Shown here: in pieces, positions 363 to 59,102 of the stretch
How positions within the stretch are numbered: the first letter of the stretch is position 1
How the letters are laid out: each line of letters starts with the position of its first letter
Source: Heliocidaris erythrogramma
Lineage: Eukaryota; Echinodermata; Echinoidea; Camarodonta; Echinometridae
Assembly: GCA_025617745.1 (NCBI GenBank)
Contig: CM046872.1
Span: 992,001 to 1,056,000 of the forward strand
Length of the DNA stretch: 64,000 nt
Direction: 5' to 3'
Translations under genes and position numbers: made by a program
Notes under the pieces: model-generated
The model's input: the letters and a program-made list of their open reading frames with translations, nothing else
Told to the model about the DNA's origin: nothing
The model's database searches: none

Positions 363-552
363 AGAAACACACACACATACACCCCACCCACCGTATGTCG
401 GTAATCGAATATGCCATGTACCATTTATCACATGTAAATAAAAGAACAATGTAGATAAAATGCCTTGCTGAAGGACATAGGTGTCGAGCAGGGGGTAAAA
501 CCCACGACCCTCGCTTTTCAAGACTTGTCTAAACCACTCGGCCACGACACTT
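363..552 (-). mobile_element. tRNA-Ser-like SINE
   Basis: Read on the minus strand, the element starts with a pol III A-box (TGGCCGAGTGG, about 534-544). A decayed B-box (GGGTTTTACCCC, about 492-503) follows at tRNA-like spacing. Next come a short body containing TCCTTCAGCAAGGCATTTT and an (AC)n tail at 363-384. The head resembles tRNA-Ser (GGCCGAGTGGTT). The body is shared with the plus-strand SINE at 25787-25962, which supports a real family. The B-box has lost the TTCGA core, so this copy is probably inactive. Confidence 0.75.
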
Positions 553-1582
553 CCACTGATAGCATAAATTTTGCAAGAAAAGGCTGAAACGTTTGGACCA
601 AACTTTCATAGACACACACACCTATTTCTATTTGCAGTGCATGACATTTTCAACAAGACTGAATCAAATCATCATTTACATGATTCCGAAACATCACAAT
701 ATAAACATCGATTCTTATAAATGATATTATCAACCTTTCCTGATAACCTCGAGGCAGCTTCTTTCATAATTAAATCGCTTTACCAGAACTCAACTTTATT
801 TAATCGTATTCATGAAATATGCAGACTATTTTATATGCATGACTCGTCTATATATCTATCTATGAATCCACATTGTTCCTCTCTTGTATACATCTCGTGT
901 TTTTTACAATAAGTTTTATGTACACAAAACATGACCTATTTTCAGTGTATACGGATTAGTGTCTCTCTATCAGACTACCCTGCTCATCCGCTCCCCCATC
1001 TTTATATTTCTCTGGTTCTTGTTACATATTCTTCTCGATCCCTATTTCTGTATATATCATAATTTCGCATCATACAGTCCAGTATCAGTGAATACGTTTA
1101 TCAATCTATATCCCTATCTATCTCAGGATAATGCTTTTGTACCGCTTCGGGTAGATTGGGGGTGCATTTGAACATTTATTTCTTCATATGCACTCTCGAT
1201 ACCCCTCATGCTCTCTTCCTCATGTTCTTATCTACATCCAATCCATCTCATGGCCATAACTCATGCTGTGCCATCCACCCTTCCCTCTGCCATATATATT
1301 TGCCCATCTGATCAAGATGATATTTCATCCCACCTCGTTCGCTAATCCCTTGCCCGCACTACCTTCATAAGATCGATACCCAGGCCATGCCCGGAGCATG
1401 AGCAGTATAAGATTATATATTGAGCAAGAGACTATAAAAGGAATCGACTGTGGCCCGTCGGAAGAAAAACTTTTGATTAAATTACGCTGTCTGGGTTCAT
1501 GGGCGCGTTCCAACCATAGTTCCATTTTGAGGAATACCCGGAGAAGTAGTAAGCAACTCGACAGCAAAGAGCTACGAGCAAA
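553..1582. other. Non-coding stretch, nothing recognised
   Basis: Only short random ORFs with no recognisable protein. No repeat copy was recognised elsewhere in the window. Confidence 0.45.
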
Positions 1583-2232: not shown

Positions 2233-4660
2233 GAATGCTATTTATATATAATGCACATTAGATCATTTTATACGGATTGAATCATTTATTATTTCACCAG
2301 AAATTTCTACGTAAGACGAACTTGATCCATATCATCCACAGAAGCTTCTAACAATCGTAAAAATCAAGAATGAGAATACGCGTAATTTAAAGAAAACAAT
2401 AAAATAACAAGCTTTAATTGAAAATAAAAGAAAAACAGGAAAAGTGATGGGGGTATGTTGCAGAAAACACTGTCAGCGTGAATTTTGACAAGCTAGGAAA
2501 CGTGGGTGTTACCGCCAAATGATTGTGTTCAATGTAATTCACCACACATATAATTGATAAAGGGTCTTGGAATCATGAATACATATGTATTTGCTTATTT
2601 TAAAAGACTTCCATGCAGAATCGAAAATGAATAATCAGTATTTGAATTCGAACTTCTTAACGGTGCATTCGTAGAAGAAGAAAAATAAAATTTCTTCTAG
2701 CTTCGATCCCGTCTCCGTGTATACAGGTTAGCTCGTCTTGGAAACCCAAATTCCCAGCCGTATATCATAGCAAGCTAATAACGTATGTAAAGAGACGAGC
2801 CTGAAAGGGAACACCTCCCACCGATCTCATACCAGCCCCTCGAGATATCATTGATCGAATTATTTCAATTGTGTTATCACCGATTGCGTATTGATTGTAT
2901 GCATGTTCCACATTGGCTTCCTAGCACCCCCCCCCCCCCCATCCCTTTGAGTACGTCTTTGAGTATGCGAAGTGATGTGGGCCAATCACTGTTTGCCAGT
3001 GCCCTATTTCCAAGAAACTTTGACCAATTTTAGAGATTAAAACAAAAAAATAACTTAGTTCTAACATGGTACAATATCTAAAGCATTATTGCATAATTCT
3101 CAGTCCGAGACAATGAGAGAAACATTCTATTATTTGCCTCAGGCGCCATACTCCCTTGGTACACCAGTGGATCTATTATTTATATTAATGATCATTATCT
3201 CTTCTTCATTTCACTCTTCTTTTGGGATTCAATCAATACCAAGCATAATTTGTTTTCCTCAAGAAAGTCATTTTACTCATTGCAAGAATCGGTATCTCAA
3301 CCACGCAGTAGCTAGAGCGTTGAGAAATTCGTTCTGTAAAACCATGATCATGATGGTTATTATAATTATGCTAATTTGTAAAAGGTTTATTTTACAGCAT
3401 TAGTACCTGATGACCTGTTTATTGTTATTATTAGAGCAATCAAACTCTTCTGTGCTATGGACGGCCAATCCTGCTCAAGAATCCGAGTGTTGGACGATAT
3501 GCGTGGACTCGGAAACTACGGCTACGGTTTTCTTGATTTCTTTCTGAATCAGAGATAGGTGTTCTTATTGTGGAGTTTCTTCCATGGGAATATGTTTTAT
3601 GATCAATTTACGAATGAACTGAGCACTTTAATTTCATTTGACGATTGGAAGATTGTTTGTGACATTTGTTTTCTCAAAATAGTCTCACCGAAGGGGTTAA
3701 ATTCAAGCTGACATTTTTTTTTCCTTCTCTGGTGGGGAACTTGTTGGCAAATTTGATCCGACCAATGAACCCATCGATTTTAATTGCACTACTGACGCCC
3801 CTTAGATATCAACTCGAAATATTTCGAAATGAGTTGGGTGAGAAGAGGGGTGGGAGGGGGGGGGGGAGGGGTAGAGGAAATGGAATATGTGACAAGTATG
3901 TAATTGGATGTCACTCAATGCCCGAGTCGTTACAAATGTGTTCAACTGTTTGCTCAGAGGCTTCAGGTATCACTTAACGAGACGCCCTCCCCACCACATG
4001 AACCTGGACTGCAAACGTCCTAATCAAAGCACAAATATGCTCGAACTGCAGATGCAGCGCAGTGGTGTAGCTACTGGGGGAACGAGCCCCTCCTCCCCTT
4101 CAATCATGGGAATGAAAATAAAAGGAGAGAAATTAAGAGAGAGAAAGAGAAACAAAGGGGATACGAGGAAACGTGATTAATAATGTCAACAAAACTTTAT
4201 ACTACCAATTCTCACTACCCCTCTTTCTTATGGCTTGTTTCCTGACATTTCATTGATTCAGTAAGACACCCCCATGAGGCCAGTGCCCTCCTAATGTCTG
4301 CACCCATTTTACCCCACTGAACGTTGTCACAATAATTCTCACTTATGTATGTACATGATGTAAGCTGGCAGCGTAAGTGCACTTAACCTATCTCAATATC
4401 TTTATAATCAAGTGATGTTGGGAGAGACGGTGGGTCTGAAGAATCGATAAGACCCAATTATTAGTATGTCTTCGCCACTGTCAAACCAACTTTCTGGAAT
4501 TAGGCATAAAAAAATATTTGACTTAGTCCTTTACATTTTCACAATTAAAACGAAAACAGAACCAAAAAAAGCGGGAAATCAACAGTGAATACTAATTAAA
4601 TTATATTACCGAGGAGGGATCCAACATCTCGTGGTTAAATAGGTGTTCACTATTTTGTGA
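2233..4660. other. Non-coding stretch with C-, G- and purine tracts
   Basis: No coding exon recognised. Landmarks are a C-run near 2927-2940, a G-rich tract near 3847-3868 and a purine-rich GAGAAA segment near 4120-4160. The phrase GTGGTGTAGCTACTGGGGG near 4062 resembles low-complexity dispersed motifs near 38.6 and 51.4 kb. Confidence 0.4.
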
Positions 4661-5060
4661 GACCTTGTTTAATTTATGCCATATATGCAATAAAACAAGA
4701 TGCACCGAATAGACCACAATCTTAATTAAGCTTATAGACACTACAATAATTATATTATATTGGATGGCTCTAAATGGGATACCAGAGAATATTGGCCATA
4801 ACGAGTGGAATATTTCTGGTATTACATGAAATAAAGCCATCCAATATAATTATTATTATCTATACCCTACAGGAAAATGATTTAGAACTTAGTAAAATCA
4901 TTTTAACCAACCACATTCAGTTAATAGAGCCCCTCATCATACTTCATTGTGATTACACAAGTTTAACTTAAAGATCACATTACAAGAAAATTCCATCAAA
5001 GTAAATATTGGCTTAATACTTTTTATTGCATATATAGCATAAATTAAACAAGGTTATCCA
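4661..5060. repeat. Nested imperfect palindrome (foldback)
   Basis: An outer inverted pair lies at about 4661-4700 and 5021-5060 (TTTTATTGCATATAT.GCATAAATTAAACAAGG in two orientations). An inner inverted pair lies at about 4743-4790 and 4806-4855 (TATTGGATGGCT plus ATACCAGA and AATATT). The inner loop is only a few bases, so the inner part could fold into a long hairpin. The arms differ in length on the right side, which suggests an old foldback element with later insertions. Confidence 0.6.
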
Positions 5061-5851
5061 AATTCAACGCTTGGAAACATTTGAAATAATGATTATTATC
5101 TATTATAAAACGGTAAAATACAGCCCCCGATATAGCAGCTGAAGAGCTCCTCGAACGCTGCTGAGATGTGTGACGACACACCAGGGGCAAGTCCTGTGTA
5201 AGCAGGCGATGTCCCATAACATCTTACACATTTTTCAGTGCCTGTTTTGTCATCTCCTCTTCACTTATTTCTCTCACTTGACTAGCGTCAGTCTTAATGT
5301 TAGTCTTTTGCCTCACTCTTAACTTCGTGTATGGTATTATTTTGATGAAAAATGCAGCGTTAAAAAAATAAAGGAATCAGTCACTTGTAAACAAAATAAG
5401 ACGCCATTGTATTTTCAACTGCTTGCACCGGGGCATGTTCGGCGTTTCAAGAGGGAACGAATACCATCCATGCTATTATTCGGAGGGCTTTTCAATTTGA
5501 AAATGGGGTTTATTTCATTGATCATTGACCCTTCTACTGTGTATTTACAATCAAACGGTTTTAGTTATCAGAATCAGTTTCACTTTCCCTTTTAGAATGG
5601 TGTGAAATAAGGTCATGTTAAATATACCAAACTCTTTATAATTTGATAAATAATTGCATTGCAATTACGTTCATTCATTATAGGACGTCGTCTGCTTAAG
5701 CAGGATCGATCCCTAGTGTGACGACATCAAAACATCGCTATATTTCTGGCGAATCCTCGGATATTCCAGATGCTTAGAAGAGCTTTTATTTATGTTGTTT
5801 TTATAATCATCAGATACGCAGTTGACATAAAACTTATACGATTGCCATCTG
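5061..5851. other. Non-coding stretch, nothing recognised
   Basis: No exon or repeat recognised. Small ORFs here have no recognisable protein character. Confidence 0.4.
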
Positions 5852-8072: not shown

Positions 8073-8287
8073 TTAGCCAACACTTGTGTGTGTGTGTGTG
8101 TGTAATTGGGTTTTTACAGACGTGTATCAATCAGATATGATTATTTACGTCTGGGACCGACCTTTAACGTCACCATCCGAAAGACGTGACTCAGTCTCGA
8201 ACCTGGGTCCGCTGAATCAGTTTATAACTTCCACTGGTAGCTGGATTACAGGCGCACGCCACAACGCCCAGTTTTTAGCCAACACTT
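8073..8287 (-). mobile_element. SINE with 7SL-like head and 13-bp target duplication
   Basis: A complete short element at 8086-8274 is bounded by perfect 13-bp direct repeats TTAGCCAACACTT (8073-8085 and 8275-8287). Read on the minus strand, the 5' end (8270 to about 8236) is GGCGTTGTGGCGTGCGCCTG followed by TAATCCAGCTACC. This closely matches the known start of 7SL (SRP) RNA as used by Alu. A B-box-like CCCAGGTTCGAGACTGAG follows. The 3' body (8200 down to about 8105) is shared with the SINE at 43562-43755, and the tail is (AC)n. Retroposition is directly supported by the duplication and tail; the 7SL origin of the head is an inference from similarity. Confidence 0.8.
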
Positions 8288-9520
8288 AAAATAAGATAGA
8301 AGTAGAAAAGGGGTCATAGCATTACTAGGATGTTTTGGTGACCATTTTTAAAATCTAGGACACGACTGCACATGTCAGAGAAGTCTTTGCGGATGTCGTG
8401 TCTAGTTGATCCACCAACCAGTCACAAGGACAAGACTGTCGCTCACGGTGTGATACCTCTCAGTCCCAAACGGACTCCGATTCCAGCCCGACTGATTCTT
8501 GCCCATTCTGGAGAATGTAATTTTTCGTTCGCTCCGTTGTCCTTCTGTGTAGGTCTCATTAGTGAGACTGGGGCATATCGTTATAGGTGGTGATCTGTTA
8601 GAAAGTGGAACAACTCATCAAAGACAACGTATTCTGTTACACCAGCCCGTGACCGAGAATTCTTAATTCGAATAGCCTGATCACTAATCCCCTGAAATAC
8701 ATGTATATCTCGCTCTTAAAACTACAGAAAACTCCTCAATTCTACTCGCGAAAATAGGGGCTTTTATTGGTTTACGTTTCCCTTTTCAGCAACAGAGTTG
8801 GATGTAGTTTGTTCGTCTGTTTCTTTGTTTGTTTGTTCGTTTTCTTTCTTATCTATAATAAAAAAAAGTGTCACGTGTTCACGTATTATGATGGGGGAAT
8901 ACGGTGTGGGTTAAATTGTAAACCTGATAAGAAAAATTTGTTGTTGCTTTTGTTTGTTGTTTATTCTTTTGATTTCGAGAAAATGTTCAAGTTTTATTGA
9001 GTGACAAACTTGTGAATACATGTACATTCATCTTGAACTACATGAAAATGCACTGTACAATTATTCAATTCAATGTGAGTATACGTTCCAACGTAAGTAT
9101 GCATAGGTAGTTTATTGACAGAAACGTTGCGGTTCAATTGAGGAAAGTCGTGTTTTGATAGAGTCATAATTTTCTGGGTTTGAATTCTTATTTAAAAGAA
9201 AACTACTGAGGAAATTAATCATTAGCACGATCTACGTTTTAGATATTCAATTTGTTGAATTTGCATTCCAATTGTATTTGTGAAACTGTTTTTTTGTGAA
9301 ATAGCAGCCCACACGTATCGTTTAACAAACCTTGAAGCTATAATTGTGTAATATATTAAGAACATGGCAATTGACTCTACCATGGATAATGCCCATGCAC
9401 AGATTGGCTAAGCTCTTGATATAAGCTTGAAGCGCTTCGTCAATAGTGGTCAAAGATTTTTTTTTCTTTAATTGATGAATGGCAAAATACTCAACGTTCT
9501 GAGGCTGCCACGGCTGCTGC
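8288..9520. other. Non-coding stretch, nothing recognised
   Basis: T-rich segments near 8800-8960. A 16-bp palindrome, GTCTCATTAGTGAGAC, lies at about 8552-8567. No exon recognised. Confidence 0.35.
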
Positions 9521-9527
9521 AATTTTT

Positions 9528-9638
9528 TTGTCTCTCTGTCTCTTTATCTCTTACTCTGTCTCTATTTTCTCTTCGTCTCTTTCTCTATCTCTCGCTCTTT
9601 CTCTTTCTCTGTCTCTATAGCATGTCAGCTCTTGTCTC

Positions 9639-9682
<44 letters not shown>
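9528..9682 (+). repeat. (CT)n-rich tract followed by (CA)n
   Basis: Polypyrimidine CT-rich DNA from about 9528 is followed by (CA)n at about 9643-9682. Open frames crossing it are low-complexity translations, not genes. Confidence 0.85.
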
Positions 9683-9684
<2 letters not shown>

Positions 9685-9878
9685 ACGTTTACATGGCTTT
9701 ACTTCCGAGGACAACTATTGTTCCTCTATTGTTACTCGTCCTCGGACAGTCGACGGAATAAGGCATAAATTCATTGTTCGACGTTCGAGGACTATTGTCC
9801 GGCTTCCGAGGACCATTGTTGTCATGATTTTTTTTTTGTTCTCTGTCCGAAAATGTCCTCGGACATAATGCTAAACAA

Positions 9879-14690: not shown

Positions 14691-15508
14691 TCCGTTAAGC
14701 ACACATCCCACTATCCTCCACATTTCTCGATCTCATATTGAACTGCCATGCTATATCTAAGGAAGAAGTTCATCAGTTTGAAATCAAATCCATTATGTAT
14801 TATCCTTGTAAACCCTTCTTATTGTAAAGTAATTAAAATACTTATCAAACTAGACAGTCTGATCACCGTAAAGTTTGTCTTTATCTATTTCTTCCTTTTG
14901 CGTGTTTCAAGAACATTTAGATTTTTTATTGTTGCATAATTTGTTCATGCCGATCGATCCCATCTTTTTCTTCTTCTTTTTAAAAAGTATGTTTCCTATT
15001 CTTCTTTTCATTTCTTCTGTTAATTCTTTGTCCTCTCCCTTCCATCGCGTAGAGATACATAATGGTTTTGAAAGTATAGAATCAGCACGTTGGAGGTACG
15101 GAAATGAACAAAACATACTATAATAACCTATGCCAAAAGGTCACAGCGCAGTTAAAAGCATTCATACAAATTGTAAACCAAGGTTGGAAAAAAAAACCCC
15201 GGCGTGCCTCCCTTTTCCCCTGAGCAAGAAGACAAAGAATGCCAATTGCTAAAGCAAAATTATAAACCATTATTGTGACCTTCTCAGAAATGACGGGGTT
15301 TTGTTTCGGAGCAATCATGGCTCAACATTTTTTTTCTCCGATAAAATGTTCAAGATGGGAAAATATGCATTGTACTCTTTAAGATAAAAGCTTCCTTTTC
15401 TTTATAGATCGTGATAGAAACGCGACAATCACAGGCTATGCACGGTCTATCATGAATAAAAACTATTTGTATATATAAGTCATGCTTAGAAATGCTTGTA
15501 GTGTCTTC
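14691..15508. other. Non-coding stretch, nothing recognised
   Basis: No exon, RNA gene or repeat recognised. Confidence 0.35.
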
Positions 15509-15650
15509 CTGGGGAGCGTTTCATCAAGCGTTTTGTCAGCGATTTTTACGGAGAACTGTTATAAGCTACTGAAATCCTTGCATCTGATTGGCTGAGGGCA
15601 AATTTTTCAGTAAAAATCACTGACAAAGCGCTTGATGAAACGCTCCCCAG
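15509..15650. mobile_element. 142-bp MITE with ~40-bp terminal inverted repeats
   Basis: The ends CTGGGGAGCGTTTCATCAAG and its inverse pair over about 41 bp with only two mismatches. They leave a loop of about 60 bp, so the element can fold into a near-complete hairpin. No coding capacity. A target duplication is not clear (flanks TTC and AAG), so the superfamily is left open. Confidence 0.85.
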
Positions 15651-16189
15651 AAGAAAGAATAAAAGCACTCTTCATTAATCACACTAACAGTTGGCCATGT
15701 CGCTTTAATTGATATTAAAGGTCAAACTGCTTTCAATTTAAATTCTCCTTTTGGTACTACACGTTTCCCCCCCCCCCCCAGAAATGTATCTTCTTCTTAA
15801 AAAGAAGGCATTACAATGTCTGTTTCCATACATAAGATGTGCCTATAACATATCTTTTGTCTCATTATGTACAGATGGACAAACGATCAAAATCATTTTT
15901 AAATACTGAAGAGAGAGAGAGAGAGAGGGAGATAGCGCATTAAGGTCATCTGATTTTCTTTCTTTAGAAATATTCTGTAAGCATTACATTGTGACATGGT
16001 GATATATTCTATAACTGTATACATTCTTTTCAGGCTGAAATAACCAATTTCTTTAAAACCCGTAGAGCTGACGTAAATCTCTGCAGACAGTGTCCAATAC
16101 TCGAATGCCGCTAACCTATGAAGTAATAGCAAATGTCACAATAATACTGTTATCATCAGTATACCTGGTATACAATAAGTGAGGGCAAA
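15651..16189. other. Non-coding stretch, nothing recognised
   Basis: C-run at about 15769-15779 and (GA)n at about 15910-15928. No exon seen. Confidence 0.35.
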
Positions 16190-18275: not shown

Positions 18276-18411
18276 TGGGTTATCAATCCAGCAGTTAAAG
18301 TGCTCAATGCAGGAGCAGAGCATTAATATAGTATAACTAATTCGGTCTTCGCTACCGCCGGTTTGACCTTCAGACAGTTGAAACCGACGGTAGCGAAGAC
18401 CGAATTAGTTA

Positions 18412-18447
<36 letters not shown>

Positions 18448-42757: not shown

Positions 42758-43561
42758 AAAAAAATACTTTTCATATAAAACCACGAGATACCTTGCTCCC
42801 CTCTTGACCCACACGATTAAACGGTCCTTGAGACCCTTCCACGGTCCCCGTGCATGCCATGCAGCGCGATGGGCTCACTACCTCGTGTGTTTGTCTTTCA
42901 CTCGGGTTACTCTAACCATAACAATCGGCATCGATTGGAGAAACACGCCGATATATATCTTCATCCCCGCGCCTCCTCTGCCCCCCATGACCCACTCCAA
43001 CGATCCGCCGTGACCGCTTTCTCAACGCGACGCTGGGGCATAGGGATCAATGGAATTTCAGTAGTAGTTTATTTACAGGTGGCATTGGGGCACGTGCCCC
43101 TGTAGAATGACGAAAAATTAGAACATAACCAAATAGAGAGAAAGAGAAGTAAAACGGAAAATTATAGGGATTGTGGATGTCGGCGAAGGAAAAATATATG
43201 CTGTCTTGCATTTCATCCACCAAGTATAAACCAGTGTCGTCCTTATGACACCCGTCCGTTCCCCATTAATGGCTGGACTATAATGTTACGCCACTTGGAT
43301 TAATTATGCCATTATAGGTTGTGACATCAGCATAATGGGGAGGGAGGGGGCAGGAGAGTGGATCCAATGTCAGGAATGGGTAGGGAGGGGTATACAATTC
43401 TTGTTGATTATCGCAGTGAATTGCTCAAACTGTTGCAACCTTTCACCTTTATATAATCATTATAATTGCCAGTGGGAAAACGATTTTTTTTTCAACATTC
43501 GTGTGTGGGTTAAATAGGATGAAAAGAGTGAATTTTCCATCAGTAAAGGTTAAAAGTACGC
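42758..43561. other. Non-coding stretch
   Basis: A 14-bp perfect palindrome GGGGCACGTGCCCC lies at 43087-43100. G/A-rich DNA lies near 43340-43390. No exon recognised. Confidence 0.35.
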
Positions 43562-43699
43562 GTTTGTGTGTGATTGGAGTTTTACAGATGTGCATCTTTC
43601 AGATATATTATGTTGGTATATGGGAACGGACCTTCAGCGTCGCCATGCCTCGTCATGCGAGAGACGCTTCTCAGTTTCGAACCGGAGTCCGGTGACGAA

Positions 43700-43730
<31 letters not shown>

Positions 43731-43755
43731 AACCACTAGACCAACCTACATAATC
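43562..43755 (-). mobile_element. SINE with tRNA-like head sharing its tail with the 8-kb SINE
   Basis: On the minus strand the head is TGGTCTAGTGGTTA (43730-43743, tRNA-Glu/Asp-like A-box). A 30-base C-run (G on plus, 43700-43729) sits where the anticodon arm would be. The B-box CCGGTTCGAAACTGAG follows (about 43671-43686). The body GGCGACGCTGAAGGTCCGTT and TATCTGAAAGATGCACATCT then GTAAAACTCCAATCACACAC matches the minus-strand body at 8086-8200. The homopolymer is probably a later expansion, or a sequencing artefact. Confidence 0.75.
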
Positions 43756-44373: not shown

Positions 44374-44898
44374 TTAAGTATTGTTGTAATTCTGCGACTG
44401 GTTATATTTCTTAAATTTTGTTGGCAAATTATTCCATATAACAGGTCCTGAATATGAAATTGATTGTTTCCCCAGATTGGTATTACTGATTGAAAAATTC
44501 AAATTAGATTTATCATTGTTTCTTGTATGATAACAGTGTTCTAGTACTGACAAATAATCAGATAAAATATGAGGCAGACTTTTATATATTATATCATGCA
44601 TAAAAATAACAAGTACATAGCGATATTCTTTGAAAACATCTAACACTTTAAGATCATAAAATAAAGGTGCAGAGTGATATCTCGAACCTTTGAAAGCAAT
44701 TATGCTAAAATTATATAACATGACCATAATTTTTCTTGACACGAGGTGTCTTAATCTTTTACGGTATATTCCAATCGTTTTACTTAGTAAATTGCATACA
44801 TTATCAATGTGTTTCTTCCATGTCAAATTTTCGTCTATACGAATTCCAAGGAACGATGGTGACTCAACTGACTCTAAAATGGTTTTATTAATGAGCAA
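44374..44898 (-). pseudogene. LINE RT C-terminal region fragment
   Basis: The frame reads FLGIRIDENLTWKKHIDNVC, the RT thumb-side motif, then ...RKIMVMLYNFSIIAF followed directly by KGSRYHSAPLFYDLKVLDVF. In relatives (compare the intact stretch at 56377-57009, PHITYGIEVWGG and following) about 40 residues lie between these blocks. This copy therefore has an in-frame deletion. It ends GPVIWNNLPTKFKKY, the usual C-terminal motif. Confidence 0.8.
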
Positions 44899-45013
44899 AT
44901 GACCTGAAATTGAGAAATGTCTTCGTCGATTTGTTTAAATAACATGTAATTAGTTTTTTTTTCGTATTTATGGTAAGTTTGTTTGAGTTGCGCCAATGTG
45001 TAACAGCTTTCAG

Positions 45014-45680
45014 CTAACGGTTAACTTCTGATAAATCAATATTACGTTCATCATGCTTAAATGTATGAAATAGATTAGAATCATCTGCAAATAAGCGAAA
45101 ATTGAAATAATTTGATGAATTCGGTAGGTTTTCAGATTGTTGTCTGTTTGTTAAATAATTCTTAAACCACTCTAACACTATTCCCCGAATTCCGTAATGC
45201 TCCAGGGTTTTTTTTTTAAGAATAGAGTGATTAATTGTATCGAAGACCTTAGCAAAATCGATATATACTGCTACTGGCAAGGTCCCTTCATCAGTAGATT
45301 GAGTAATTTGATTGATCAAATTTATAAGCGAGAGTTTTGTACTATATCCATGTCTAAATCCACACCGATAATTATATAATATTTCTTATTTCTCTAAGAA
45401 TTTCACCACTCGAATATTTACAAGCTTTTCAAACAATTTATCCACAACTGGTAAAACTCTAGCTACATTTAATTTATCCGGGAAGATGCCCGCTGTGAAT
45501 AATATGTTTAGTATATGCGTGAGTGGTTGGCAAACATAATTCTGTGCATATACTAATAGACGAACTGATAAATCATCATATCCACTGGCCTTAGACTGAT
45601 CAAGATTACTTATCACATTTTTTACTTCATAACTTGTTACCGGAAGAAAAAAGAATGATTACCTAAATACCTATTATAAT
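45014..45680 (-). pseudogene. LINE reverse transcriptase core fragments
   Basis: Upstream: VKNVISNLDQSKASGYDDLS ... AGIFPDKLNVARVLPVVDKL. The KKGD..NYRPIS segment normally between VLPV and KLFEKLV is missing. After a stop comes INQITQSTDEGTLPVAVYID then FAKVFDTINHSILKKK, ...EWFKNYLTNRQQ. It jumps straight to LPNSSNYFNFRLFADDSNLF, skipping the CGVPQGS..GPLLF region. The catalytic FADD is kept near 45079-45093. Two clean losses inside otherwise readable frames are unusual for random decay. Confidence 0.8.
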
Positions 45681-45700
45681 CAACGTCTGTATATTCTATT

Positions 45701-46118
45701 TTACTTGCCAAGTTTTTCCCAATATTTGAGAAAAAAAATCGTTGAAAACATTTGCAATATCTTCTGATGAAGAAACCTCAATTGATCAATCAGTTGATCA
45801 ATCAGATTTGTTTTTAATGAGTTTGTGAATTTTATCATTAGTTTTTCCATAACTTTTTTTAAATTCAGGAGTTCATTAATGTGCTCCCATTTAAAAAAAA
45901 AAATAATGTCGTTCTGCTTTGCCATTCTGAGAAATGTAGTTAAGACGTTTCTATATCTTTTATACTTTCCTGGAACCTCGTCATTATATTTAGACTTAAT
46001 TACTTGAGAAAAAAGTTCGTGCTTTCTTAATATTGAGCGCCTAATAGCACGTGTAATCCAAGGTTTATCTCTTTTCTTTAATTTAATATTGTTGGTTTCG
46101 ATAGGTGCATGTTTGTCA
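45701..46118 (-). pseudogene. LINE endonuclease-RT linker fragment
   Basis: It reads VDKHAPIETNNIKLKKRDKP then WITRAIRRSILRKHELFSQV, the conserved KPWIT..I...I linker before RT in CR1-like LINEs. It is in frame to about 45710. Its upstream neighbour is the nested insertion. Confidence 0.75.
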
Positions 46119-46551
46119 ACTGCACCACATCCTCTACGAAAAGGAGGCCCCACACGGGCTGCGGTCAAGGAAGCTCCTCCGCACATTCCTTGCAAATCTG
46201 GAAGAAGCAGAACCTCTAACGTTAGAAATACCAGAGCGGCTCCAGCCTTACTTTGATGCCTGGACATCTCACCCCAGGTTGCAATCTACCAAGAAAGCCC
46301 TGGGTACAACTGAGCAGATTGCAGTCTGGTTTTGGCCGATATGCAGCAACCATGAAAAGATGGGGAATCACAGACTCTGACCTCTGCCCATGTGAACAAC
46401 TACAAACCCATGTACATGTTATCAATGAGTGTCCTGTGATGAGACCCCCATGCCCAATCACAGAGGTAGACAACCCAGACCTGATCACCTACCTCAGTAA
46501 CTGCCAATTTTGACTGATGTGGATGACATACGAGAGAAGAGAAGAAGACAT
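46119..46551 (+). mobile_element. Nested LINE 3' fragment of a different family
   Basis: A plus-strand insertion of about 430 bp splits the host LINE. Its frame (to 46513) reads LSRLQSGFGRYAATMKRWGI and DSDLCPCEQLQTHVHVINEC then PVMRPPCPI. This is the C-x-C..T..H....CP zinc-knuckle-like C-terminus found in several non-LTR families, and it ends LITYLSNCQF-stop. A GAGAAGAGAAGAAG-type tail follows. The host reading frame (..NIFQQFSY / VDKHAPI..) resumes on each side, so the insertion came after the host copy. Flanks CATGTTTGTCAACTGC and CATATGAAAACTGC hint at a degenerate duplication. Confidence 0.75.
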
Positions 46552-46963
46552 ATGAAAACTGCTGAAAGATATTGTAAGCTTCATTTGGGTTAGAGCATCT
46601 GAGCACATCCAGCAATTCCTTATTAATTACATCATTACAGAAAGAATCCAATGAAAAATTGCGAAAGTTTCTGCATGTCACTTTCTTCATAGCCTTTTTT
46701 ATACACTTAAAATTCTCAAAAACAGCGTACAACGGAAAATGATCAGAAACATCAACCTCAATACATCCCGCCCGAATAGGATAGGAGGAAATATTACAGT
46801 AAAAGTGGCCAATTAGAGATGAACTTGTGTTGGTAATCTTTGTCGGATTTGTAATTAGTTGACGTAAACCAAAACTTTCTGCCATGCGTAAAAATTCCGG
46901 GCTATTACAATTAGGGACAATTACAATTAGGGACAAATCAACGAAATTATTTCCACTGAGCAC
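46552..46963 (-). pseudogene. LINE endonuclease C-terminal fragment
   Basis: It reads EFLRMAESFGLRQLITNPTK, TSSSLIGHFYCNI and EVDVSDHFPLYAVF. The SDH motif is the C-terminal catalytic signature of AP-type endonucleases of LINEs (D and H kept). A 15-17 bp tandem duplication (ACAATTAGGGACAATT, near 46908-46938) disrupts the GDFN region just upstream. Confidence 0.8.
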
Positions 46964-48259
46964 AAAAGCATGGTATAATGACTCACCTCCGCTCTTAATT
47001 TGATATCTGATATTCTCTCAATCACCGGTCTGTACTAATTTCACACTGGAAAATACAGTGGCACAGGCATGTTATTTTAGTGGCAAATACAGAGTCAAAA
47101 CTGTGTTCATATCGAAGTGGTCAGTAGCGGATGTCATCAACAAATTCATCACGATGAATACATGTATATCAAAATGAGTCGTGCAGTAGATCCAAAAGAA
47201 AGAAAAGCGTTTACCAAATCTTAATCTAAATAAAAATAAAAATCAAGATTTCGGATGTGTTACATGTTTTCTCAGTGTCTTGTTTCAAAGCGTCCCTTCC
47301 AAGAGGCAAAGATGATGTAAATGAAATGGGATGGATACGGCGAGGAGAAGATTATAGATCGTCCACGCGCCATGATAAAACCCCGGAAGCATGAACTCTT
47401 TTAAAGAACAGGTTCAATTTACAATTGTAATAATACAGCTTGAAGAGTATTATAAGGAATCTTGTTACAATCTGTACACCTCTTCCTGAGTATTGGTTCT
47501 TTCCTCTTCATGTATGTCGATTATGAATGATTGCTGTCAGCAGATGGGGTGTGGTTACATTTCCAGACTGGAAATAAACATTTTTATTGCCCTGTAGAAA
47601 TGTAAAAGTTCTGTATGTGGAGAAAATTTTGAAGTCAACCATTTCTTCATATTGAAATAATCTCCCGTAAATTAACATCGACAATTTATAACTTCAAGAA
47701 ACTCATAAGAAGCTATTTTAATAATCACAGTCATAATGCTGTCTTTTCTTTTTTATCTGTACATAAGGGTAAGACATGGAATATGATTATATAACATTTA
47801 TTTTTTGTCCTCGTTTTTTAAGGATAAGGGGCAACTGCCCTAATGTTCATCACTTCTCTCGGAATACCCCCCCCCCCCCTCCCCATAACATGCTTGTGCT
47901 TTATTTGAGAAATCTTCGAGATATCAACAGGTGGGATGCTGCAAATCTTATAATAACACAAACTAATAGTAATGAATGGTATTTTCTATGATTTTGATAT
48001 TAAAACGATTCATTTTAGAGCTGAAAACATTCACGAACAGCTCGAAGGGATTTATGAGGGAGCGATTTCAATGAATATTTTCCTAATGGACTAATTAGAA
48101 TTTCGAAGCCTACACACATGGTGTTGCCATGTGATTATCATTCTTTTTCCTCCCCCCCCCCCCCCCCCCCCCCCCCAGTGCTACTTACATTCTATAATAC
48201 ATTTCTACAAAACTGTTATATTATTTTTGTATATTATACACCCTGACAATTGTACGTCA
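46964..48259. other. Non-coding stretch with C-runs
   Basis: C-run at about 47868-47880 and a 25-base C-run at 48152-48176. No exon recognised. Confidence 0.4.
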
Positions 48260-54423: not shown

Positions 54424-54807
54424 TGTTTAGCAGTATGTCCGAGGACATTTTCAGACAGAGAACAACAAAAAAATCATGACAAGAATGGTCCTCGGAAGCC
54501 GGACAATAGTCCTCGAACGTCGAACAATGAATTTGTGCTTTATTCCGTCGACTGTCCGAGGACGAGGAACAATAGAGGAACAATACCTGTCCTCGGAAGT
54601 AAAGCCATGTAGAGCTGCGTTCGTTTAGCATTATGTCCGAGGACATTTTCGGACAGAGAACAAAAAAAAATCATGACAACAATGGTCCTCGGAAGCCGGA
54701 CAATAGTCCTCGAACGTCGAACAATGAATTTGTGCCTTATTCCGTCGACTGTCCGAGGACGAGGGACAATAGAGGAACAATTCCTGTCCTCGGAAGTAAA
54801 GCCATGT

Positions 54808-54814
<7 letters not shown>
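54424..54814 (-). repeat. ~200-bp microsatellite-embedded repeat, tandem dimer
   Basis: Two units, 198 bp apart (GTTTAGCAGTATGTCCGAGG near 54425 and GTTTAGCATTATGTCCGAGG near 54623), sit head-to-tail with only a few bases between. Both match the single unit at 9683-9880 in reverse orientation, with a few differences. (GT)n follows at about 54813-54838. The same CCGAGGAC/GTCCTCGG palindromic words are present. Confidence 0.8.
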
Positions 54815-56376: not shown

Positions 56377-57009
56377 TTAATTTTTTAGCAGATATTGGAC
56401 AAGAGCTTTACGAAAACTTGACCTTGATGACTTTTTCCTAATTGTGACTGGAATGTCATTCCAAAAAATTGTACCTAAGTAAGATAAACACTCTTTTTCT
56501 AGGCTCTTCTTAACTTTTGGTATACAGAGATTCTCATCTTCTTTTTTCCTTGTACTATATCCGTGTTGAATTAGTGAGCAATATTGTGACAATGAATGGG
56601 GCAAATTCCCATTAATTAAGTCATACATAAAACTACATATAGATAATCTATGCAGTTGATAAACATCAAGTATCTTAAGATCCCTAAATAATGGTCTTGA
56701 TCTTGTCATGTACGTACTGAATGTTATAGCACGTATTGCCATTTTTTGAATTAATAATATAGAATTATGGTCAACCTTCCTAGCTCCACCCCATACTTCG
56801 ATACCATATGTAATATGAGGCTGTATGAATGTCTTATATAACATAATCAAAATATTTTTAGGCAGGAAGTTTCGCAGTCGGTATAGGATACCAACTTTTT
56901 TGCGTATACACAATTTGAGTTTGTCAATATGAGTTTTCCACGTTAAAAGTTTATCGATGTCTACTCCAATAAATGTTGTAACATCTACTTCACACAAATA
57001 TGTATCCAT
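56377..57009 (-). pseudogene. LINE RT C-terminal domain, well preserved
   Basis: 210 residues: FIGVDIDKLLTWKTHIDKLK, MLYKTFIQPHITYGIEVWGG, SILLIQKMAIRAI, SRPLFRDLKILDVYQLHRLS, and the end motif TIFWNDIPVTIRKKSS...LLKN-stop. This is the typical C-terminal region of the family at full length. It is separated from the RT palm segment by a stop at 57010-57012. Confidence 0.85.
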
Positions 57010-57012
57010 GAT

Positions 57013-57505
57013 CTAAATTCTTCCTTGCACATTAATTGCCTGTCCTCGCCCTCTAATTAGCATGTAATTTGTCTTTAACAAATTTATACTGACTTTATTA
57101 ACATTACACCAATCTAGGACGTTCTTTAATTCTATTGTTATTTCTCTCAAGTCTATCTCGTACTTTCTGACTGGGAATGTATGAAATAGATAGGGATCAT
57201 CTGCAAACAATCTAAAAGTAAAGTAGTCGCTTGAGTTTGGTAAGTCGTTAATATACAAAAGAAAAAGAGTTGGTCCCAAAACAGGCCTGAGGTACACCGC
57301 AAGATATTGGTTTGTAATCGGAGAAACCCCCATTACAAATTACATATTGAAATCTATTTTCTAAATAATCTTGAAACCACTGAAGTGGCACACCTTGCAC
57401 CCCATAATGTTTTAGTTTCTTAAACAGTATGCTATGATTTATGGTATCAAATGCCTTTTTAAAATCAATAAAAATTCTACATGAGAATTGTTTTATGCTG
57501 TGAGG
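57013..57505 (-). pseudogene. LINE RT palm segment, frameshifted
   Basis: Upstream (57505 to about 57300): FIDFKKAFDTINHSILFKKL, HYGVQGVPLQWFQDYLENRF and ..SDYKPISCGVPQ. A frameshift within the PQG.LGP motif near 57270-57295 follows. The next frame continues GPTLFLLYINDLPNSSDYFT and FRLFADDPYLFHTF. The FADD catalytic motif is intact (about 57195-57209). Confidence 0.8.
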
Positions 57506-57509
57506 TTTC

Positions 57510-58117
57510 GGTCCCTTGTATTTAGACAGTTACAAAGAATATTTCCTATATAATGTGTTACATTCTGTTCAGTAATATATTACTGTTGGCAGTTATCAGT
57601 TATTATAATACTTGCTTTAAAATATTATTAAATGAACAATCTGTAATATAATGAATCTACTGATGATAATATGTAGCACATGTATATCATCAAAAGTGTA
57701 TACATACAACACAAACTAAAAAGTATTTACATTAATGAGATAAATACAGTGTATTTTAAGAATAATATCAAAGTACATTAATTTTTTAGCAGATATTGGA
57801 CAAGAGCTTTACGAAAACTTGACCTTGATGACTTTTTCCTAATTGTGACTGGAAGGTCATTCCAAAAAATTGTACCTAAGTAAGATAAACACTCTTTTTC
57901 TACCGCAAGTTATTGGTTTGTAATCGGAGAAAACCCCATTACAAATTACATATTGAAATCTATTTTCTAAATAATCTTGAAACCACTGAAGAGGCACACC
58001 TTGCACCCCATAATGTTTTAGTTTCTTAAACAGTATGCTATGATTTATGGTATCAAATGCCTTTTTAAAATCAATAAAAATTCTACATGAGAATTGTTTT
58101 ATGCTGTGAGGTTTCGG
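57510..58117 (-). mobile_element. Tandem, internally deleted copy of the adjacent LINE
   Basis: This segment repeats 56109-57511 in direct orientation, but 795 bp are missing, joining TCTTTTTCT to ACCGCAAG near 57901. Identity outside the gap is about 99 percent by eye. Both copies end at GTGAGGTTTCGG. The lost part covers the RT FADD region and most of the C-terminal domain. Beyond 58117 the sequence is not LINE-like, so the minus frame running to 58246 is a chimera. Confidence 0.85.
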
Positions 58118-58194
58118 AATCATCAAAGGATAAGAAATTAAATCAACGTCGCTGAAAAGCACATTTACTGCACACATAAATGGGTATATGCGAC

Positions 58195-58310
58195 TGCGCA
58201 CACAAGTGGCATGTTCAGCCCAAACATTGCAGCTATTTCTCGTCATATTTCGAATATGAGGGCATTTGAAGAACTGTCCTATGCAGGGAGCATTTCTGAC
58301 ATGACAAGAA
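58195..58310 (+). repeat. Dispersed repeat (ATATTTCGAATAT family)
   Basis: GTTCAGCCCAAACATTGCAG, CATATTTCGAATATGAGGGC and ATTTGAAGAACTG match the right arm of the 22672-23066 foldback read on the minus strand (TTCGGCCTGAACATT, ATATGAGGGCATTTGAAGAG). Confidence 0.55.
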
Positions 58311-59102
58311 CAAGAAAGCTAACAAACTATTTTTTTATACGCAACCTTCCTCTTTTTAATGAAAGCTAAAACAGAAATAAATGAGAAGCTATCATGCCAA
58401 CATTGGTTATGGCAATGACTCTATCTTCCAACAACAAACGTCTGAAGGTTTCACAGATAACGAAAACATGAAAGAAACTGAAGAAAGACAGGGGAAAGGA
58501 TTAATTGCGTTTCACTTAGCGGCATATCTGCTTCCGTCAAACAATTGAGAGATCTTGCTGTATGCTCTTGCTTTTCAAACGTCCTTGCCCGTATATTTTT
58601 TTTTGTTTGATATCACATGATGTTTCGACTTAAAAGCAGACCAATCTGGATGTGTGAGGGGTGGCAGTGGTGGTGGCGGTTGGGGGGGGGGGGGGGTGGC
58701 ATGTTTTTTCATTACCGAAATAATGAGAATCAGAGCAAGCGGTAAAGGGGTTGCGGTGGCGTATTACGGTGGGGGCGTGCCCTTTATACAGATCGAAAAG
58801 CGAAATATGAAAACAAAACCAAGAATAATGGAGAGAAAAGGAGAGAAAAAAATGAAAAGTAGAAGATAACGTAAGGAGAAGCACCTCTTTCACACTCTCA
58901 ATTTCTATACGAATTTCTTTCCTCCTTTTCTTTTTCCCCCGAAAGTCATGCAACGAGTAAGACACCCCCCCCCCCCCCCCCCTGCCCTCGAACTCCATGA
59001 CACAAGTGCCCACCTTAAAAGCTGGACAAGTACACGCGCTACGCCACTGGGGGATGTTTCATCTCATTATGAAATTTGGTTTACCCTATCACTTTCTTTG
59101 AT

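Follow-up and report, generated by a model that had tools for sequence, protein, structure and literature searches.

A young SINE family that appears to have exchanged a tRNA-type 5' half for the 5' domain of its host's 7SL RNA

Introduction

Alu, B1 and FLAM, the SINE1 elements of Euarchontoglires, carry the 5' domain of 7SL RNA, with its A box and UGU motif, at their 5' ends, and excerpts of PMC7245038 describe them as retaining 7SL nt 1-63, 76-83 and 267-299 and as ending in poly-A. The tree-shrew Tu SINEs and the bushbaby GarnAlu elements, which belong to this lineage, appear in the same excerpts as chimeras of 7SL-derived and tRNA-derived SINEs. Passages from three papers (PMC8466645, PMC9599045, PMC10886601; 2021, 2022 and 2024) give the hagfish as the sole independent origin of a 7SL-derived SINE outside the mammalian lineage. 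Part of PMC7245038 presents this element, SINE1-1_EBu of Eptatretus burgeri, as a young family with 2363 full-length insertions reported, in which a 7SL head of independent origin has been joined to a tRNA-headed SINE that was already present in that genome; it retains the 5' 96 bp and a 3' piece of 7SL and has a tail of the RTE type. For invertebrates, a schistosome paper (PMC2770079) mentions both 7SL and SINEs and derives its SINE from a tRNA, the main text of a bivalve transposon survey (PMC10294476) contains no occurrence of 7SL, and among the listed titles and abstract openings of open-licence papers there is no invertebrate SINE1.

Here we describe a 189-bp element from the genome of Heliocidaris erythrogramma. 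It lies in a 64-kb window (the whole stretch of DNA that was analysed, C20:992001-1056000), and the host genome searched comprises 1,064,227,859 bases in 26 contigs. In keeping with an invertebrate host, this genome has i-type lysozyme (Destabilase) domains, with 8 matches that exceed the cut-off; a molluscan haemocyanin domain gave no match, and neither did its control. Like Alu, B1 and FLAM, the element has the 7SL 5' domain, an A box and the UGU motif at its 5' end, but its 7SL similarity ends at nt 44, so that 7SL 76-83 and 267-299 are missing. A tRNA-type B box follows instead, and the copies shown whole end in AC repeats, sometimes short, rather than in poly-A. The Tu SINEs and GarnAlu are likened to it by description only; in the present element 7SL has replaced a tRNA-type 5' half. 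The closest parallel is SINE1-1_EBu, since here too a young family unites a 7SL head of apparently independent origin with an older SINE of its own genome that had a tRNA-type head. Compared by description, however, the present element retains 7SL nt 1-44 with no 3' piece, and it has a tRNA-type B box and a tail for which no LINE match was found in the window. Judged from its sequence, the element qualifies as a 7SL-headed SINE, lacks some features of the mammalian lineage and has its B box from a source other than 7SL.

Results

Layout of the insert

A preliminary description of this DNA had noted a complete 189-bp insert with a perfect 13-bp target duplication, and this holds. Identical copies of TTAGCCAACACTT (13 of 13 positions) lie at 8073-8085, on the 3' side of the element, and at 8275-8287, on its 5' side, and enclose 189 bp that read on the minus strand (8086-8274); in a scan of the 64-kb window this was the sole exact 13-mer pair at a spacing of 202. 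Element positions (el) are counted down the minus strand from el 1 (8274) to el 189 (8086). The 7SL-like letters start at el 3 with ACTGGGCG, and the two A in front of them may be either flank or element.

The first segment (8227-8272, minus strand) corresponds to 7SL nt 1-44 with 2 inserted nucleotides i.e. to the 7SL 5' domain, including H2, H3, H4, the UGU motif and two loops. Within it, the A-box-like GGCGTTGTGG (8259-8268, minus strand) occupies the position of the 7SL A box, and the same letters recur in all host 7SL genes but L093, L094 and L095 (15 of 18). The segment that follows (8183-8226, minus strand) has no 7SL similarity and, from its alignment to four loci with tRNA-type heads (L118, L130, L131 and L137), appears to derive from the head of a tRNA-type SINE. 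It contains the tRNA-type B box GGTTCGAGACT (8193-8203, minus strand), with one mismatch to the B-box consensus GGTTCGANNCC. Next comes a core (8153-8182, minus strand) that is common to 7SL-headed and tRNA-type-headed members. This core, TTTCGGATGGTGACGTTAAAGGTCGGTCCC, presumably resembles the Meta domain of the MetaSINE superfamily, which is defined by a common 66-bp Meta core and is said to go back to Nishihara et al. in 2016. The 3' tail (8104-8152, minus strand) has a stem-loop, CAGACGT...ACGTCTG, and may be the end that a LINE recognises, the candidate 3' end sequence being ATAATCATATCTGATTGATACACGTCTGTAAAAACCCAATTACAC. Together with its neighbouring bases the stem-loop has a predicted fold of -13.9 kcal/mol, against only -0.9 for the tail of an old copy at 43559-43743. 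The element closes with an (AC)n microsatellite (8086-8103, minus strand), whose length differs between copies, and TTTT is absent from the 189 bp. The gap between A box and B box is 55 nt in the 7SL-headed SINE, wider than the 30-40 nt that excerpts of PMC9599045 and PMC8466645 give for SINEs, and this counts against the explanation that we prefer below.

The 5' end and the host 7SL genes

The Rfam model Metazoa_SRP matched el 3-48 with 34.0 bits (E 6e-8, 97 bases searched) and gave 34.3 bits (E 3.3e-5) when all 64 kb were searched. Neither score attains the gathering threshold of 70 set for the family, since the match is confined to model positions 1-44 out of 299. None of 2000 shuffles scored as high as el 1-55 did against a human 7SL sequence, and in a simple scan of the window for 7SL-like places the element scored 51 and the runner-up 21. 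The earlier observation that the minus-strand start reads like the start of the 7SL Alu domain is thus borne out, both by the model match at 8227-8272 and by the shuffle controls.

The host genome has 18 full 7SL genes that exceed the Rfam cut-off, with scores of 248 to 278 bits (12 on C16, 5 on C4 and 1 on C1). As an aside on these genes (L078-L095), the 12 on C16 form two clusters with a spacing of mostly ~2 kb, and their upstream sequence is very similar in most cases. The SINE starts at 7SL nt 1, and its first 36 nt (from ACTG) are found exactly in 10 of the 18 genes. Compared with one of the genes, L079, it agrees at 36 of 36 nt and then, over the whole of 7SL 1-44, at 43 of 44, with the 2 extra nt falling within the H4 loop. 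Aligned to host 7SL, el 1-48 scored 39 over 43 of 46 columns, which none of 3000 shuffles reached. A SINE body follows 7SL nt 44 i.e. the S domain is deleted and the element is not a plain 7SL retrocopy. The same region scored 5 to 7 against the tRNA-type-headed siblings described below, a score at shuffle level in the one case shuffled, so that of the sources to be compared the host's own 7SL proved by far the nearest to the head. No tRNA or 5S match to the head was listed in the Rfam scans, by which alone 5S was covered. An Alu-domain fold of the head had also been put forward as a check; the SINE retains all 13 listed H2, H3 and H4 stem pairs as well as the UGU motif, but two further H3 pairs are not formed in it, one of which is also missing in human 7SL. 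Across aligned copies, 453 of 463 stem cells are paired in subfamily A and 238 of 247 in subfamily B. By these alignments, el 3-48 represent the 5' domain of 7SL RNA and come from the host itself.

The head agrees with human 7SL in 28 of 34 columns, as it might if the element were human or other primate Alu contamination. However, the host 7SL genes are closer and have the same non-human forms ACTGGGCGTTG and TAATCCAG, and copies of the SINE are present on 16 contigs; contamination is therefore hardly conceivable and we regard it as ruled out. Outside the host, a pattern of the head had seven viral matches, of which five were examined and none of these five continues like the head, and two further viral patterns gave no matches. 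In a collection of genome contigs the head pattern gave first 0 and then 12 matches, all in one common context; we judged these unrelated and presume that they represent one bacterial gene family.

Copy number and age

The preliminary description had asked whether other copies carry this head, and they do: a 33-nt head pattern, with two mismatches allowed, is found at 3932 places across the 1.06-Gb genome (1921 forward, 2011 reverse; a reversed-pattern control gave 0), a count that may include the 7SL genes. At the same stringency a 34-mer of the tail is found at 4725 places and the core at 5307, each with a control of 0. Searching with the whole element gave 407 first-look candidates, of which 40 were scored. 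Without exception these proved full-length, at 99-100%, and they are spread over 16 of the 26 contigs. Identity over 188 nt was seen in 23 of them, including the window copy and 6 that lie at regular intervals in a single stretch of C4. The chimeric structure is uniform as well as multicopy, the junction being retained within 2 of 15 columns in 55 of 57 aligned near-full rows (the 57 rows represent 47 distinct sequences, with array units and duplicates included, and come largely from contig C1).

These numbers bear on the possibility that the element is a single chance chimera, made by template switching between 7SL RNA and a SINE RNA, and not a member of a family. Chimeric retrocopies are known from parts of the literature, and a 24-nt head pattern matches only one place in the window. 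However, with 3932 head places in the genome and 23 identical full copies among the 40 scored, a one-off event is ruled out by copy number, and we consider it very improbable indeed.

The median difference from the subfamily's own consensus is 1.2% for subfamily A (37 rows) and 2.0% for subfamily B (20 rows), figures that lean young because a row was chosen either for having an exact head or tail or for ranking among the best matches of the body. Over core plus tail, nine tRNA-type-headed siblings depart from their majority sequence at a median of 5 of 69 positions (range 1 to 27), compared with a median of 1 of 80 for the 7SL-headed rows, both being small picked samples. Taken at face value, these divergences indicate that the family is young.

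Origin of the second half

We compared both halves of the element with host 7SL and with L118, a locus with a tRNA-type head. The score of 39 between el 1-48 and host 7SL stands against 7 for L118 (reached by 2367 of 3000 shuffles), whereas el 49-105 scored 31 against L118 (0 of 3000) and 8 against host 7SL (2609 of 3000) i.e. similarity to 7SL stops past nt 44. In the alignment of L118 to el 49-103, 45 of 57 columns agree, which none of 3000 shuffles equalled, and the match begins at el 49, the first nucleotide past the 7SL piece.

An old relative of the same kind lies in the window itself (43559-43743, minus strand; nhmmer E 2.6e-13 over element nt 59-184). Its tRNA-type head consists of the A box TGGTCTAGTGG, followed by 30 consecutive C, and a B box, and core and tail come next; el 51-95 matches this copy and el 1-55 does not. 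The run reads as 30 G at window positions 43700-43729 (C on the SINE strand) and is inside the tRNA-type head of this copy. A gapped pattern of A box plus B box found the old window copy and two places on C8 in the genome.

Further siblings were seen among 20 loci with an exact core but no listed exact head or tail: 12 have the 7SL head and 3 (L130, L131 and L137) a tRNA-type front, and the remaining 5 are either truncated or preceded by different sequence. The three with tRNA-type fronts match the 7SL-headed SINE from el 52-56 on (36/43, 32/39 and 35/43 columns, respectively) and through core plus tail (74/80, 77/78 and 72/78); for el 1-46 the alignment scores with these loci are 6 to 7. The B-box region of the siblings is found by pattern at 337 places in the genome, to be set beside the 3932 of the 7SL head only as a rough comparison, the patterns being different. 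Eight of the loci with this pattern were fetched, L130 and L131 again among them; none has the 7SL head, two have an A box of full consensus, and in three (L145-L147) part of the core or tail is lost or changed. ARAGORN called no tRNA in the window, the element, four forms of the old copy or three siblings. Given this, and with a full A box in only two of eight siblings, the older head is assigned a tRNA origin by its box motifs.

The head therefore cannot be assigned to either source as a whole. A tRNA origin of all of it, as in a SINE2 with a tRNA-derived 5' end holding both A and B boxes, is ruled out because ARAGORN found nothing and because 7SL accounts for the 5' half, which leaves the B-box half alone as tRNA-type. 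A 7SL origin of both boxes is ruled out likewise, since el 49-105 matches the older tRNA-type head and not 7SL; the A box is that of 7SL and the B box that of the older head. What had been proposed as a 7SL-derived SINE family is accordingly 7SL-derived in its front (7SL nt 1-44), and multicopy as supposed, but from the B box onward it comes from a tRNA-type-headed SINE. The mosaic, together with surviving siblings that have the same B box, core and tail, shows that host 7SL nt 1-44 took the place of the 5' half, including the A box, of a tRNA-type-headed SINE, and that the product then multiplied.

Mode of spread

Target site duplications of at least 8 nt flank 10 of 51 distinct copies (the old copy and truncated copies included), compared with 227 of 10014 flank pairs that had been mismatched as a control. 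In four of the ten (L022, L033, L042 and L047) the repeat is due to a microsatellite or a tandem arrangement, so that six remain, with duplications of 8 to 17 nt. This scarcity of clear duplications, the existence of head-to-tail arrays with a spacing of 177-282 nt and the six identical copies ~3.15 kb apart on C4 would fit a spread mainly as DNA, through tandem and segmental duplication, and not through retroposition. We consider this improbable, however, because the 40 full-length copies are dispersed over their 16 contigs, single copies have differing flanks, the six duplications just mentioned remain, the AC tail varies in length from copy to copy, and 5'-truncated copies exist.

Several loci have unusual arrangements. 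Satellite-like head-to-tail arrays were seen at L024, L033-L037, L039 and L042, one of them with five units exactly 181 nt apart. The copies at L030, L053 and L057 are interrupted by other sequence, and those at L053 and L057 are broken at the same core position, after which both continue with GTAGAAC.

A partner LINE was not found in the window or among 20 loci with an exact tail but no listed exact head; of these loci 16 are still 7SL-headed and 4 are 5'-truncated or tail-only. The window does contain broken LINE fragments, at 44374-47017 and 56377-58318 (minus strand), with weak reverse-transcriptase matches and ending in AATAAAAT followed by CATT repeats. We rejected them as the partner because both end in such repeats.

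Other sequences in the window

Four further features of the window were noted. At 18323-18422 there is a near-perfect long inverted repeat, with arms of ~38 bp around ~24 nt, which matches a plant microRNA model below cut-off on both strands and looks like a small palindromic transposon. Another inverted repeat with a long stem, at 15505-15654 (minus strand), matches Rfam MIR2606 below cut-off and is probably a MITE. A 197-bp unit is tandemly duplicated at 54425-54808, the two units being 96% alike, and related translated sequence is found at 9503-9868. Finally, GTCGTGGCCGAGTGGTTTAGAC at ~500-565 (minus strand) looks by eye like the front half of a tRNA and is perhaps part of another SINE.

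Discussion

Taken as a whole, the explanation that we favour, and hold to be very probable, is that of a young SINE family which exchanged its 5' half for host 7SL nt 1-44 and came to combine a hybrid RNA polymerase III promoter, docking through SRP9/14 and insertion by a LINE. RNA polymerase III probably transcribes the element from a hybrid internal promoter, with the A box of 7SL and the B box of the older head. By analogy with Alu, the 5' end of the RNA would fold as the 5' domain does in 7SL and be bound by SRP9/14, and in this way the SINE RNA would reach ribosomes that are making LINE reverse transcriptase; the LINE would then recognise the 3' tail and insert the copy. The 5' domain alone suffices for SRP9/14 binding. 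Excerpts of PMC8137916 identify UGU as the conserved SRP9/14 site, and passages in PMC7245038 and PMC12062377 state that Alu depends on SRP9/14.

The 7SL piece might instead serve solely as a promoter, supplying the A box and a 5' start for RNA polymerase III, with SRP9/14 binding playing no part. The swapped half does carry the A box, and A box and UGU domain are inseparable by sequence alone. In addition, subfamily B is multicopy despite one base change in a loop that we take to be the one making the loop-loop contact. However, the 7SL piece extends beyond the A box (nt 14) to the last base of H2 at nt 44, the boundary of the 5' domain, and it keeps the 13 listed stem pairs, so that we consider a purely promoter role the weaker reading, though one with appreciable probability.

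If docking through SRP9/14 does operate, the family would represent a natural head swap in which a 44-nt SRP9/14-binding domain turned a modest tRNA-type-headed SINE into a family that is younger and about ten-fold larger. It would also mean that ribosome docking of the Alu/L1 type can serve an invertebrate LINE, and that nothing of 7SL beyond the 5' domain is needed for it. We put this forward tentatively, as a possibility that falls a little short of even.

7SL-headed SINEs have so far been described from a few mammal groups and the hagfish, and here there are thousands of copies in an invertebrate. A separate birth with surviving tRNA-type-headed siblings would isolate what the 7SL piece adds, since only 44 nt were retained and these stop where the 5' domain does. 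The question of why Alu-type heads succeed may thereby become testable outside mammals, and perhaps outside L1.
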